Origin: Acidobacteria bacterium SCN 69-37 | GTDB lineage: Bacteria > Acidobacteriota > Vicinamibacteria > Vicinamibacterales > SCN-69-37 | Assembly: GCA_001724025.1 (NCBI GenBank) | Contig: MEDJ01000001.1 | Span: forward strand, 1-64,000 | Length of the DNA: 64,000 nt | Direction of reading: 5' to 3' | Shown here: positions 48,178-53,540 of the stretch, in pieces | Position numbering within the stretch: the stretch's first letter is position 1 | Layout: the number at the start of each line of letters is the position of its first letter | Notes under the pieces: generated by a model | What the model was told of the DNA's origin: nothing | The model's input: only the letters and a program-made list of their open reading frames with translations | Database searches by the model: none | Made by a program: the position numbers and the translations under genes

Positions 48178-48555
48178 TCAGACAATGACGACCTGCAGGC
48201 GCGGATCGAGCCGCCGCAAGTCGTCTGGATCGCTGGTCAGCACGGCCTGTCCGGCCCGCTGCGCGCACACGACCACGTGGGCGTCGACGATGTCGCTCGT
48301 GTCGCGCGCGGCGAGGAGCAAGCCGGTTGCGGTCGCGTCGGGACCATCCAGCGCGACGAGGTCGGTGCCGGCTTGCCGGATGAGCCGTGCGACGCGAGCC
48401 TGCCGTGCCGGTTGTCGAACGACCTGGGCCAAGGCGGTGGCGGGAACGGTGAGCCGTGCACCACGCTGGGCGGCTCGGGCGACGAGCGCCAGCACGCGCC
48501 GGTCGCCGCGATCGAGGGCGATCAGGCCCCCGGCGTCGAAGGTGAGTCCACTCAC
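48178..48555 (-). CDS. PIN-domain (VapC-like) toxin
   Basis: A 125-residue PIN protein: first Asp in LTFDAGGLIALD, Glu position replaced by a loop AALAQVVRQ-like segment, then DTSDIVDAHVVVCA and TSDPDDLRRLD with the later acidic residues. The GTG at 48555 overlaps the antitoxin stop (GTGA). PIN toxins are Mg-dependent RNases. Confidence 0.85.
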   Translation of the reverse strand: MSGLTFDAGGLIALDRGDRRVLALVARAAQRGARLTVPATALAQVVRQPARQARVARLIRQAGTDLVALDGPDATATGLLLAARDTSDIVDAHVVVCAQRAGQAVLTSDPDDLRRLDPRLQVVIV

Positions 48556-48827
48556 GCGACGTTCCGGCGGGACGTGCGCCGTGCACGCCGGGGCTTCACA
48601 CCGAGCACGCCATCGGCCCACGCGCGTTCCTCGGCGGTCAACGGTCCCCCTGTGTCGCGCAAGGCTTCGTCGAGCATCTCCCGCCATCCGGCCGCGTCGT
48701 GCAGGGCCACCCGCACGGCATGAGTCACGAATCCCGACACACTCGACGCCTGCCCGGCGGCAACGAGACGCCGGACTTCGTCGAGTTGGTCGTTGTCCAG
48801 CGTGATGGTCACCTTGCTTGTTGCCAT
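48552..48827 (-). CDS. VapB-like ribbon-helix-helix antitoxin
   Basis: A 91-residue protein starting ATSKVTITLDNDQLDEVRRL, a ribbon-helix-helix strand and helix, followed by VSGFVTHAVRVAL. The C-terminal half would bind the PIN toxin. An ATG 12 bases upstream (48839) is an alternative start. Three ATACC repeats lie over the start region. Confidence 0.85.
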   Translation of the reverse strand: MATSKVTITLDNDQLDEVRRLVAAGQASSVSGFVTHAVRVALHDAAGWREMLDEALRDTGGPLTAEERAWADGVLGVKPRRARRTSRRNVA

Positions 48828-48842
48828 ACCGAATACCATACC
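48826..48842. promoter_or_regulatory. ATACC repeats at the VapB start, possible operator
   Basis: ATACC occurs at 48826-48830, 48833-48837 and 48838-48842. Short direct repeats at the start of RHH antitoxin genes commonly serve as autoregulatory operators; this is inferred. Confidence 0.3.
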
Positions 48843-48892
48843 CCGCCCGAGCGATGCCCGCAACGTTCCGGCATACACAATCACCAGTGCCC

Positions 48893-49242: not shown

Positions 49243-50697
49243 TCACCCCCACGTCGTCGTGCGTTCGTGCAGGGTGGTCAGCGCGGTACGCCACCGCGCG
49301 GGATCTCGCTGCACATTCAGCGACGGATCGATCGGCAGCAGCCAGCCTGCGCCGCCACCGGGAGCCGAAGCCAGTGCCGAGGCGACGAGCCCGGCCGCCT
49401 CGTCCGGGCGGCCAGATCGTTCGAGCAGCAGCGCCCGCGCCATCGCGTCGTCGACCGGCATCGCGCCGCCGTCGCTCTCGGTATCAGCGGAGGGGCCACC
49501 GGCCGTGCCGGCCCGAAGCACACGCAGTGTGGCATGCGCCATCGGATGACGCGGCACGCGTGTCAGCGCTTCCTGCAGCGCGGAGCAGGCAGCGGTCGGA
49601 TCGCCGCGCCGCTCGTGCAGGGCGGCCGCGGCGTACCACGCCGCCGCGCAGCATTCGCGCGAGAACAGGTGGTGCAGCGGTTCGAGTTCCCGTTCGCGAT
49701 CGAAGTGCGTCAGGGCCTCCTCGTCCGCACCGCGCGCAAGACAGAGCAGTCCCTTCAGCCAGTGAATCGCCGCGCCCGAGAAGCCTGACGGTCCCGCGCT
49801 CGCCATGGCCTCGAGCGCCGGATCGAGTTCGCGCTCGGCGAGATCGAGCTCGTTGCGGGCGACGTGCACGGTGGCGATCAGCCAGTGTGCAACCGCGAGG
49901 CCGCGCCGTAACTGCAGCGTCCGTCGCGCCGCGCGCAGTCGCTGTTCGCCCCAGCTGCACCACGCGAGTCGCAGATGATGCGCCCAGTGATCGGGTTCGA
50001 GCCGGATGGCCTCGACGACGGCGCCGATGGCGCGTCGACGATCGCCCGTCGCATCCACGACGAAGCCGTAGGTCGCCCACGCTTCGGCCAGCGCCGGCGC
50101 CAGGCGGCGCGCTTCGAGCGCGTGACGGACCGATGCGCGCAGCGCATGTTCATCCGGCGCGTCGGCAGAGCGCGTGCCGTGAAAGCGGAGGATGTACGCG
50201 TTGGCGAGGCCCACGTGCGCCAGGGCGTTGTCCGGCGCGGTCTCCACGACGCGGGCAAACAGCGTCACGGCCGCGTCGACGCGTTCGGTCACCAGTGTCT
50301 CGAGCATCGTCCGCCCATCGAGCAGCGCGAGGTGTGGCGCCATCAGGGCGTCGAGCTCCGCGTCGCTCAGGCCCTGCTCGTCGCGCGCGACGGAGATGAC
50401 GAAGCGGTAGCCGAGGCGCGGGACCGTGGCGATGTAGCGTTCCGGATCGGACGGGTCGAGGGTCGCGCGCAGGCGCGAGATGGCCTGCGCCAGGCTGTTG
50501 TCGCTCACCGCGTGATGCGGCCAGCCGATCGCGATCAGTTCGTCTTTCGCCAGCAGCTCGCCGGGACGCGAGACCAGGGCTTCGAGCAGGTTGAAGAGGC
50601 GGGGCTGCAGGGGGATCGCGGTCTCGTCGCGCAGCAGAAACCGTCCCCGCGGGTCGAGCCGGAACGGGCCGAACCGGAAACCGCTGCCTGACGGCAT
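49243..50697 (-). CDS. Winged-helix (OmpR/CadC-type) transcriptional regulator with TPR repeats
   Basis: A 484-residue protein. Residues 1-100 are a Trans_reg_C winged helix (FRFGPFRLDPRGRFLL, LLEALVSRPGELLAKDELI, DNSLAQAISRLRATL, YIATVPRLGYRFV). The rest is a helical TPR array (HVGLANAYILRFHG, EAWATYGFVVDATGD). There is no receiver or membrane helix. The ATG at 50697 is preferred because the alternative at 50733 lies inside a strong hairpin. Such proteins sense through protein contacts; the target genes are unknown. Its 3' end is duplicated at 47948-48087. Confidence 0.85.
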   Translation of the reverse strand: MPSGSGFRFGPFRLDPRGRFLLRDETAIPLQPRLFNLLEALVSRPGELLAKDELIAIGWPHHAVSDNSLAQAISRLRATLDPSDPERYIATVPRLGYRFVISVARDEQGLSDAELDALMAPHLALLDGRTMLETLVTERVDAAVTLFARVVETAPDNALAHVGLANAYILRFHGTRSADAPDEHALRASVRHALEARRLAPALAEAWATYGFVVDATGDRRRAIGAVVEAIRLEPDHWAHHLRLAWCSWGEQRLRAARRTLQLRRGLAVAHWLIATVHVARNELDLAERELDPALEAMASAGPSGFSGAAIHWLKGLLCLARGADEEALTHFDRERELEPLHHLFSRECCAAAWYAAAALHERRGDPTAACSALQEALTRVPRHPMAHATLRVLRAGTAGGPSADTESDGGAMPVDDAMARALLLERSGRPDEAAGLVASALASAPGGGAGWLLPIDPSLNVQRDPARWRTALTTLHERTTTWG

Positions 50698-50721
50698 GCG
50701 GCATTCTACGGGCAGAAGAGC

Positions 50722-50751
50722 GGGGCGGGACATGAAAAAGTGTCCCGCCCC
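50722..50751. repeat. 11-bp perfect hairpin
   Basis: GGGGCGGGACA and its complement TGTCCCGCCCC flank an 8-base A-rich loop. It lies between the helical-protein gene stop (50780) and the regulator start. No T-tract follows on either strand, so it may be a transcript-stabilising or weak termination hairpin. Confidence 0.6.
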
Positions 50752-50779: not shown

Positions 50780-51553
50780 TTACGACGCCTTGTCCAGCAC
50801 CTCCTTCAGTTCGACCGGCGGGCTGCCGGCCACCTCGGATGACGCCTCGCCCGGCACGTCGTCCACCGTCGCCACCTCGATCGGGGCCGGCACCGACGCC
50901 ACGACCGGCGTCGTCACGGTTTTCGAGGAAGGTGACTGGCCTTCCATGTGCCGGGCCCCGCGCCACTCGGCCAGTCGCACGCCGTCGCCGCGAAGCGTGT
51001 TCGCGACGGCGACGTCGAGGTCGCGAATCGCGTCGAAGCCCAGAGCCAGGGCGCCTTCGAGTCCTGCCTGCGCTTTCACTCGCGATCGGCGGCTGTCCTG
51101 CTGGACGTTGATGGCCTGCTCCAGGTCGCCGACCAGCTCGCGGAGCTCCGTGAGGAACGTCGGCGGCATGCCGAGTCTCACGAAGCGGTCCACTCGCTGC
51201 GCAGCTTCCTCCATGAACAGCCGCGCCGAGGCCAGCACGACCGTGGCCGAGTGCCGGCGTGGCATCCGGAAAGGATGCGTGCCGGGCCCGGCCTTGTCGA
51301 TCCGCCGCCCCGTGGCGGCGATCGCCTTCATGGCCTCGACGACCGCCCGCCGCGTGGTCGTGCGGACGCGCTGGGCATCCGCACGAGCCTTCGTGCGTCG
51401 AGTGAGGTACTCCTCGAACGCCGACACGGCTTCGGCCACCCTGGTGAACGCCCGTCCACCTTCTGAGAACTCCGGAAACACGTCACGGTTGACCATCCCG
51501 AAGTTTCGTACCCGAACGAACATTTCGTACTTCAGTCGTTGTGCTTTTTGCAT
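50780..51553 (-). CDS. All-helical protein of unknown function beside repeat arrays
   Basis: A 257-residue protein from the ATG at 51553 (GGAG upstream). It begins MQKAQRLKYEMFVRVRNFG, then NRDVFPEFSEGGRAFTRVAE. Three or four long amphipathic helices follow, rich in Arg, Glu and Ala, ending in a disordered Ser/Val/Pro tail after about residue 200. It has no cysteines, signal peptide or membrane segment, so it is cytoplasmic and probably a helical bundle. I do not recognise a family. Its 5' end faces the two repeat arrays at 51655-52274, suggesting it could bind them; that is conjecture. Confidence 0.65.
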   Translation of the reverse strand: MQKAQRLKYEMFVRVRNFGMVNRDVFPEFSEGGRAFTRVAEAVSAFEEYLTRRTKARADAQRVRTTTRRAVVEAMKAIAATGRRIDKAGPGTHPFRMPRRHSATVVLASARLFMEEAAQRVDRFVRLGMPPTFLTELRELVGDLEQAINVQQDSRRSRVKAQAGLEGALALGFDAIRDLDVAVANTLRGDGVRLAEWRGARHMEGQSPSSKTVTTPVVASVPAPIEVATVDDVPGEASSEVAGSPPVELKEVLDKAS

Positions 51554-51654
51554 CGTTGCCCGCTCCTTTGCGGGTGCGGGCATCGTCGCGCGGGCGGATG
51601 GGCGAAGTCGTGAACAAACCCTGAACGAACGCTGAAAAGACGTTCACATCCGGG

Positions 51655-51940
51655 TTGACGACGCGGCGGATCGACGTCGACGGGTCTTCTATCCGACTGC
51701 GGCACCTCGTCTGCGTCACTGCGTTCGGGCGCGTGTGTCGGTGTCGCGGATCGCGTGCAGGACGTGCCGGGGCGCGTGTCCTGATTCGACGAGTCGTGTG
51801 CCTCACTCGACGACGCTTCTGCGTCGGATCAACCGGTCGTCTGCATCACGTCGACGCCCCGCGTGCATCACGTTGACGAGGCGCGTGAGTCACTCCGACG
51901 ACCCGCGTGACCGACCTGACGACGATCCGGCACGGCAACG
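51655..51940 (+). repeat. Array A: about 13 degenerate 21-22 bp tandem repeats
   Basis: Units begin at 51655, 51677, 51699, 51721, 51743, 51765, 51787, 51808, 51830, 51851, 51873, 51895 and 51917. The clearest read TCGACG-x-x-GCGTG-x-x-TCAC; GACG near the start and GTG-xx-TCAC at the end recur. Unit length is 21-22 bp, so the series is not coding. It is divergent in sequence but strictly periodic. Confidence 0.75.
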
Positions 51941-51981
51941 TGTTGATGGCAACGGACATGCCCAACGGGTCGCCGATCGTC

Positions 51982-52274
51982 GTCAGGAAGGTCACGCGAC
52001 CTGTTCAGGTGATGCCGCGCAGGCGTCGGAGTGAGACACGCGCCCGGTCACAGTGGATCACGCGATCTGGAGACCCGATGCGCGCGATCCGTCAGGTGAT
52101 GCCGGTGATCTGTTGCCGCGAGTCTGGCGACCTGGAAGGTGATGTCGGCGACCCGTTCTGGCTGCACTGGTGAACCGTTGATGCAATGCAGGTGACATGT
52201 CCAGGTGAGACACGCGCGCCGGCGGGGAAGTCGGGTGAGCCGTTGGGGGAGTCGGATGACTTGTTGCAGTCATC
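51982..52274 (-). repeat. Array B: about 13 degenerate 21-22 bp repeats, opposite orientation
   Basis: Units begin at 51982, 52003, 52025, 52047, 52069, 52091, 52112, 52134, 52155, 52177, 52199, 52221 and 52242. Most start GT(C/T) or GGA and carry GGTGA and CACGCG or GGCGA-like blocks, which are the reverse complement of array A motifs. The two arrays meet tail to tail around 51941-51981. Confidence 0.75.
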
Positions 52275-52526
52275 GCCGCGGGCTCCGCGACCGGCGCGAT
52301 CCTGTGCCGTCGCGGAGGCTCGAGGAGAACGACGGTTCTCTGTCTCTTTGCTGCCGCAACACGCCTCCGGCCTCTCGTCCCTCACGCTGACACCTCCCGC
52401 CAGAGTTTGACGGCCGTCAACATTCGCCTTGCGCAGGCGCTGTAGCCTCGGCGCACCGTCGGTCACGGCCCACGAATCCGCGTGCGGCTGTCCAGGGCGG
52501 TTCAGCAGGAGGTCGAGGCGGGCACG
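52275..52526. other. Leader of the oxidase operon, no gene recognised
   Basis: No repeat unit or gene is visible here. TTGACGGCCGTCAA at 52407-52420 is a perfect 14-bp palindrome, a possible regulator site or promoter element for the oxidase operon that starts at 52527. Confidence 0.4.
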
Positions 52527-53540
52527 ATGCGAAAGCACATCTGGGCGATTACCGCGCTGGGCATACTGTGCGCACCGTGGGGCCGCGTCTCGGCAGACGT
52601 CGAGGCCGGACGGGCCGCCTTCCAGGCGAAGTGCATGGCGTGCCACTCCGTCGAGGTCAACGGTCCGGTCATGCTCGGCCCGAACCTGGTCGGAGTCACC
52701 GAACGCCGCGACGAGGCGTGGCTCATCCGCTGGATCATGGAACCGGATCGGATGCTCGCCGAGCAGGATCCCATCGCCGTCGCGCTCCTGAACCAGTTCA
52801 ACCAGATCCCGATGCCCCCCCTCGGCGTGTCGGAGACCGAGGCCCGCGATCTGCTGGACTACCTCGCCGACGTCAGCGCACAGGCCTCGGCGACACCGGC
52901 AGCCGCACCGGCTGCGGCGATCCCCCGGCCGACAGGCCTGGCCATCCTCACCGCCGGACTGGGACGGACCCAACTGGCCGGCCTCGTGATCTTCCTCGGC
53001 CTGTCGATGGCCGTGGTCGTGGCCTTCTGGCAGGTGGCCCGGAGCACCAGGCAACCGGTCCCGACCATCGACATGAAGGCGGCCTACAGGCTGCGCCGCA
53101 AGTTCTTCATCGGCACCTCCGTGCTCGTGCTCGGCACGCTGGCCGCCACCCTGCCGCGCACGCCGTACCCCGACGATCTCGAGACGCCCGATGAACTGGT
53201 CTACGTCACGGCCAGGCAATTCGGCTTTCTCTACAGCTCGGAACCGATCACGACCGACGCCGACATCGGGCAGGTGCCTGTGACGAACACCCTCGAAGTG
53301 CCCGTGGGCGCCCTCGTCGAATTCCGCGTGACGAGCCTCGACGTCACGCACAACTTCGCGCTCTACGATCCGGACCACGTCATCGTCGCCCAGACCCAGG
53401 CGATGCCCGGCTATGTGAATCGCCTGCGCGTGCGGCTGGCCGCCCCCGGCGTCTTCCGGGTCCTCTGCCTCGAATACTGCGGACTGGCGCATCACGCGAT
53501 GCAATCGACGCTGACGGCGCGTCGACTGACGGACGAATAG
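52527..53540 (+). CDS. Haem-copper oxidase subunit II with N-terminal cytochrome c domain
   Basis: A 337-residue exported protein. After the signal peptide comes a cytochrome c domain (CMACH at about 36-40, Met in IPMPPLG), then one membrane helix (about 150-175), then a cupredoxin with a complete CuA site: His in SLDVTHNFAL and CLEYCGLAHHAM (Cys, Glu, Cys, His, Met). In ordinary caa3 enzymes the haem domain is C-terminal, so the order is reversed here. It would pass electrons from haem c through CuA to subunit I. GAGG lies 8 bases before the ATG. Confidence 0.88.
   Translation: MRKHIWAITALGILCAPWGRVSADVEAGRAAFQAKCMACHSVEVNGPVMLGPNLVGVTERRDEAWLIRWIMEPDRMLAEQDPIAVALLNQFNQIPMPPLGVSETEARDLLDYLADVSAQASATPAAAPAAAIPRPTGLAILTAGLGRTQLAGLVIFLGLSMAVVVAFWQVARSTRQPVPTIDMKAAYRLRRKFFIGTSVLVLGTLAATLPRTPYPDDLETPDELVYVTARQFGFLYSSEPITTDADIGQVPVTNTLEVPVGALVEFRVTSLDVTHNFALYDPDHVIVAQTQAMPGYVNRLRVRLAAPGVFRVLCLEYCGLAHHAMQSTLTARRLTDE

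Follow-up and report, generated by a model that had tools for sequence, protein, structure and literature searches.

In the window (the whole stretch of 64,000 nucleotides analysed here) a gene for a helical protein is preceded by two opposed arrays of short degenerate repeats, and arrays with a step of two helical turns lie immediately upstream of most of its homologues. The simplest reading is that the array reader is specified by its own locus, where the helical protein is the only conserved gene, because motif and period follow the protein, loci of the same genome differ and no other gene recurs beside them. We put at about even the chance that the helical protein (or a locus-specific partner) reads its own phased DNA array in an autoregulatory, centromere-like complex. 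What the analysis shows is the association itself, the fixed period and the constraint on the core of the repeat; motif and period also vary together with the protein, and the main clade has a promoter in the interval that separates the array from the gene. Direct DNA binding, cooperativity and autoregulation by the helical protein are what we infer. The initial annotation, which had suggested a centromere-like, silencing or chromosome-organising system, is thus partly supported.

Features of the helical-protein locus, in window coordinates
Feature	Position	Strand	Basis or remark
Helical-protein gene	50780..51553	-	ORF list; homologues align from start 51553
Inverted repeat GCCCGC...GCGGGC around likely ribosome-binding site AAAGGAG	51558..51581	-	Sequence reading
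Three TTCA(G) boxes in 11-bp steps (TTCAG-N6-TTCAG-N6-TTCA)	51611..51636	-	Between array and gene
Array A, gene-proximal half, 22-bp period, unit tCACtcCGACGa..CGCGTG	51655..51940	+	Autocorrelation, unit profile
Centre, switch of unit orientation	51941..51981	.	Inverted-repeat pair
Array B, gene-distal half, Array A unit reversed, 21-22 bp steps	51982..52274	-	Lags 22/43/65, unit profile

Both halves of the array lie between the helical-protein gene and a divergent cytochrome-oxidase-type gene (52482-53540, plus strand). By autocorrelation, the region 51640-51960 has a lag-22 self-match of 0.428 against an expected 0.273 (z 5.9), while 51960-52290 gives peaks at lags of 22, 43 and 65 bp (z 3.6, 3.3 and 4.4). 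The maximum was attained by none of 500 dinucleotide shuffles in either half, and the strongest 19-25 bp signal of the entire 64-kb window is at 51.6-51.7 kb. The repeat arrays at 51655-52274 are therefore real, and the reservation that their autocorrelation might not exceed that of shuffled controls falls away outright. Their proposed opposed orientation is also borne out: the unit profile finds the same unit inverted between the halves, and complementary pairs join them (for example, 51904-51927 with 51975-51998, 92% complementary with 47 nt between the arms). The estimate of about 13 units per half holds as length divided by period, but only 7 and 3 units in the two halves lie within one mismatch of the 7-mer core in a chain search.

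Three explanations had been set aside in advance, correctly. CRISPR requires near-identical repeats with unique spacers and nearby cas genes; these units are degenerate, 20-22 bp long and spacerless, with no recurrent neighbouring gene. Tandem repeats within a coding region were rejected because the period is not divisible by three at 13 loci (20 and 22 bp). Nor are the arrays IS ends.

The longest ORF starts at 51583 (267 amino acids). The protein probably begins at 51553, in agreement with its homologues, and would then have 257 residues. It has a helical core of about 200 residues and a disordered Pro-rich tail, ending in an L-x-K-A-S motif that has a similar counterpart in near relatives. 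An AlphaFold2 model is all-helical (pLDDT 79) with residues 207-257 disordered. As described initially, the protein is unrecognised: no Pfam or NCBIfam family scores above its cut-off, and a fold search against PDB and BFVD gives no significant match. No DNA-binding domain was found in Pfam, NCBIfam or PDB. Isolated weak matches are a partial one to PADLOC PDC-M53A (E 3e-4, one protein) and one to Pfam Chlamy_scaf (E 3e-4, one of 16 family members). Many members have a slightly acidic core (median charge -1.7) and the core of the window protein is strongly basic (+11). In a mapping of specificity regions, blocks 85-104 and 181-200 were weakly favoured, which is not significant after correction for the 17 blocks.

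The family is patchy. The window's genome has a second copy of the gene, at a contig edge, and one related genome has six, of which one is truncated. A profile search found the family in 15 of 396 sampled Acidobacteriota genomes. In the Pyrinomonadaceae, the family of genome G342, 37 of 119 genomes have homologues; a genome may hold as many as 13 copies, and many copies are truncated. The assignment to Pyrinomonadaceae follows from L080 and L067 being one sequence, of which L067 bears that family name. The loci are on contigs of up to 1.2 Mb that look chromosomal. A viral, plasmid or phage origin was rejected, no relatives being found in the collections searched (viral_contigs, plasmids and phages). 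A conserved partner gene was likewise rejected: no neighbouring gene recurs across the family within about 1.5 kb of the loci.

An array was called where a period of 20-22 bp, or its double, reached p<=0.01 against dinucleotide shuffles. Such arrays are present in the immediate upstream region of 70 of 87 testable homologous loci, compared with 3 of 88 regions downstream of the gene and 4 of 83 regions far upstream (L067 and L080 are one sequence entered twice among the loci counted). With gene fragments left out, our own count is of about 67 array-bearing loci among 77 full-length homologues whose upstream DNA is readable. The expectation that homologues would be accompanied by arrays is thus upheld for these copies, but about 13% have no detectable array (for example, G403a, G379, G118a, L135, L128, L039 and L042, as well as L068 and L069, two groundwater MAG loci). 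Opposed halves are not general. They are found in the window, in its relative C20 and in several loci of the PQLLE family (see below), whereas most Pyrinomonadaceae arrays are unidirectional. One locus, L137 (G342:C6), has a second strong array with a 42-bp period (z 13.8) located 800-1500 bp upstream of the gene.

Reuse of an array elsewhere in the genome was rejected for L071 and L112, whose arrays have no further copy in their own genomes and are therefore cis elements. The window's genome holds one solo relative, C20 (L030:8313-8931, G000:C20), which is 68% identical to the window array over 626 bp and similarly opposed. Immediately downstream of it is a PASTA-like gene (named by eye), and neither a helical-protein gene nor a relic of one lies in its vicinity. 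Either C20 is a remnant without its gene, or it serves the window's helical protein as a second target.

The step between units is strict. The exact period is 21 bp at 56 loci, 20 bp at nine and 22 bp at four, corresponding to two turns of B-DNA as had been supposed from the window alone. On the protein tree, loci of equal period group together (7 changes, compared with 12.5 when shuffled; 0 of 200 shuffles), and the period tracks this tree rather than the host genome, single genomes holding loci of differing period. The core motif differs locus by locus. Within an array a 6-8 bp core is near-invariant (TGCTACC in L071, GGTCAGA in G342d) while the rest of the unit varies, and the motif is therefore under constraint; a weaker second block is often found about 10 bp from the core. 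Motif similarity increases with protein identity (Mantel p<0.0005). The covariation persists both among pairs with unalignable upstream DNA and once GC is corrected for (r 0.147, p<0.0005).

We propose a cis unit of two parts, the helical-protein gene and an upstream array of locus-specific cores placed exactly two helical turns apart. The helical protein would recognise the core of its own array; an unseen locus-specific partner is less likely. Many copies of the protein would bind cooperatively on one face of the DNA, one copy or dimer for every two turns, and where the arrays are opposed binding would spread outward from the palindromic centre. As the complex would form at, next to or around the promoter, it would most likely control expression of the gene itself. 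It may also form a compact centromere-like or bridging nucleoprotein structure.

The strongest points against this own-array reading are the lack of a DNA-binding domain or fold match, the slightly acidic cores of many members, the array-less copies and the fact that co-inheritance of array and gene with slow drift of the motif could alone give a weak covariation of motif with protein. Others are the turnover of the arrays, which can differ greatly between proteins of 78-81% identity, the solo C20 array and the possibly transcribed arrays of the PQLLE family and some other loci.

The main rival, which we consider unlikely, is that the array acts as transcribed RNA and that its repeats or hairpin bind or neutralise the cognate protein, as in type III toxin-antitoxin systems. 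ToxIN has RNA repeats of about 36 nt, with a promoter before and a terminator after the repeats, and a beta-barrel toxin. In both, a lone protein gene has tandem repeats ahead of it and pairing is locus-specific; the window family differs in its DNA-phased 20-22 bp units, its all-helical protein and, in the main clade, a promoter after the array. Judged by the protein, a type III system was rejected: the model is all-helical, with no match to a toxin family or fold and no ToxN-like toxin.

The position of promoters bears directly on this rival. In the largest clade the interval between array and gene contains a sigma-70-like promoter, with 26 sense matches there compared with 5 antisense ones and a density of 2.09 per kb (0.07 in genes). 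Ahead of the array sense promoters are not enriched (0.52 against 0.74 antisense per kb). The main-clade array is therefore probably outside the mRNA, that is, upstream DNA and not leader RNA. In PQLLE-family loci and some others the promoter is apparently upstream of the array (L071 has a perfect TTGACA-N17-TATAAT ahead of it), so the array could be transcribed there. A promoter upstream of the repeats, the type III trait, is thus possible in PQLLE-family loci such as L071 and is not found in the main clade. The array thus has no constant place with respect to the promoter, which fits an operator or a centromere-like array better than RNA.

On both strands the window region reaches a better fold than its shuffles (z -5.1 and -4.4). 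In L075 and L078 the array is separated from the gene by a GC stem with T's after it, resembling a terminator, and the centre of L072 is closed by UUCG; all of this favours RNA. Against it, the fold of L071 and L072 is no weaker once the units have been permuted, and elsewhere permutation has marginal effects, and thus the opposed arms match little beyond the core. Moreover, folding of most G003 arrays is not clearly better than that of shuffles, and z is as low as -3.5 in one coding control. A long RNA hairpin of the opposed halves was rejected on these grounds. The fixed 20-22 bp step is also unexpected for RNA repeats, and Rfam gives no real match.

It is distinctly unlikely that a host factor reads the array, or that this is simply a phased element (curvature, supercoiling, RNA polymerase) to which the helical protein is unrelated. 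Promoters are indeed no more than a few hundred bp away from the arrays, whose predicted curvature is slightly above that of column-permuted arrays (mean z 0.69, 16% above 2). The effect is small, however, and absent in several arrays, and intrinsic curvature was rejected as the explanation. The association is specific to the helical-protein family, and loci of the same genome differ in motif and period. Low-identity paralogues of one genome share motifs no more than do loci of different genomes (p 0.07), which makes a common host reader unlikely, and a host-wide reader was rejected.

Least probable of the readings considered is that no specific reader exists and the arrays are satellite DNA of fast turnover, maintained by slippage and unequal exchange and perhaps part of a selfish multicopy element: patchy distribution, the many copies and pseudogenes per genome, rapid sequence turnover and a duplication in G003 agree with it, whereas non-uniform conservation inside the units, the period locked at exactly 20, 21 or 22, the constant position upstream of the gene and a motif kept where the DNA is no longer alignable do not. 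The duplication (L031:5402-6377 and L036:9457-10541; G003:C19) covers an array and the first half of its gene at 88% identity, the second copy being truncated. Array and gene start therefore move or duplicate as a unit.

If the helical protein does read its own array, the closest systems in working would, by analogy, be the single-protein or motor-independent partition modules, R388 StbA and pSK1 Par; by the features tested the family is a member of neither. The pSK1 Par protein combines a helix-turn-helix with a coiled-coil, and its site is upstream of the gene. This single gene is cited in PMC11500499 as a whole partition system. It is likewise a one-gene system but is plasmid-borne, and no sequence relation to the helical protein was found. 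StbA of R388 is a DNA-binding protein encoded beside a direct-repeat array (stbDRs) around its own promoter, and can act without its motor protein (PMC3098194). The likeness is in the gene with an adjoining repeat array near the promoter and in motor independence. The stbDRs differ in that they are 9-bp repeats spaced by 2 nt (an 11-bp step), are plasmid-borne and belong to a three-gene operon; StbA is unrelated to the helical protein by any search made.

The plasmid centromeres parC, tubC and type Ib sites are repeat arrays upstream of an operon, bound by a cognate small protein that represses it (PMC5016525). They resemble the present loci in position only, as a repeat array beside the promoter of a candidate binder. 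They need an NTPase gene, whereas here there is no recurrent neighbour and there are up to 13 loci per genome. No ParA, ParM or TubZ-type NTPase partner is recurrent within about 1.5 kb of the loci, and the helical protein has no relation in Pfam, NCBIfam or PDB to a centromere-binding protein with a known DNA-binding domain. The TAACTGA heptamers of Beggiatoaceae (PMC4679880) are different from these arrays, and no description of such protein-array loci was found in the papers searched.

NCBIfam NF052641 (PQLLE_fam) is perhaps a remote relative of the helical family, judging from profile comparison. The two profiles align collinearly but weakly (hhalign probability 57%, P 1e-4), and L067 matches the PQLLE_fam model with E 4e-4. 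The window protein gives no match to this model, whose curated cut-off is 80 bits, and only one of 16 members of the helical family matches at all, with 20 bits. The PQLLE_fam members found in this analysis are preceded by 21-bp arrays, and several of these are perfectly opposed: in L071, GCTACC is repeated every 21 bp, followed by TTGCTACCGTGGTAGCAA and then by GGTAGC every 21 bp. The two families are alike in layout and in having a helical protein of similar size, with an array of 21 bp against 22 bp in the window. PQLLE_fam differs in being separated from the helical family by a very long branch. No array is reported for it in the papers searched.

We consider it plausible, at somewhat less than an even chance, that these loci form an undescribed phylum-wide single-gene class, in which a new all-helical fold acts on a private phased array, diversifies rapidly and can be present as a dozen mutually orthogonal copies per genome, making a motorless centromere-like, silencing or self-recognising element. 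Should own-array recognition prove right, the fold would be new among those that recognise specific sequences, and the many natural protein-array pairs, orthogonal to one another, would offer ready material for work on how DNA specificity co-evolves and for building orthogonal DNA tags. A candidate function would follow for this widespread family, which has no name, and for its possible relatives, PQLLE_fam among them. The strict step of 20, 21 or 22 bp set by each locus is a sharp geometric prediction.

Several smaller features lie around the genes. Most loci other than the window's have a hairpin right ahead of the start codon that differs from the window's inverted repeat. In Pyrinomonadaceae loci (for example, L118, L080 and L116) it is GGAAGGA...TCCTTCC, immediately before the ribosome-binding site, and other loci have other stem sequences; translational control by these leader hairpins is possible. 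Within the window's locus pattern search recognised no sigma-70-type promoter; there are instead the three TTCAG boxes, a possible promoter or regulator site. As an exact match the triple box is unique in the whole genome, and similar triplets occupy the same place in G003a-e. Directly downstream of the helical-protein gene is a winged-helix and TPR regulator gene (49243-50733), and related ORFs are downstream in G003c and G003e. This regulator might bind the TTCAG boxes. The sequence ...NVQR.PARWR.A.TTLHERTTTWG is repeated near 48.0 and 49.3 kb, which suggests duplicated 3' ends of a regulator gene. At 48178-48884 there is a PIN-domain-like toxin with a VapB-like antitoxin gene (assigned by eye).
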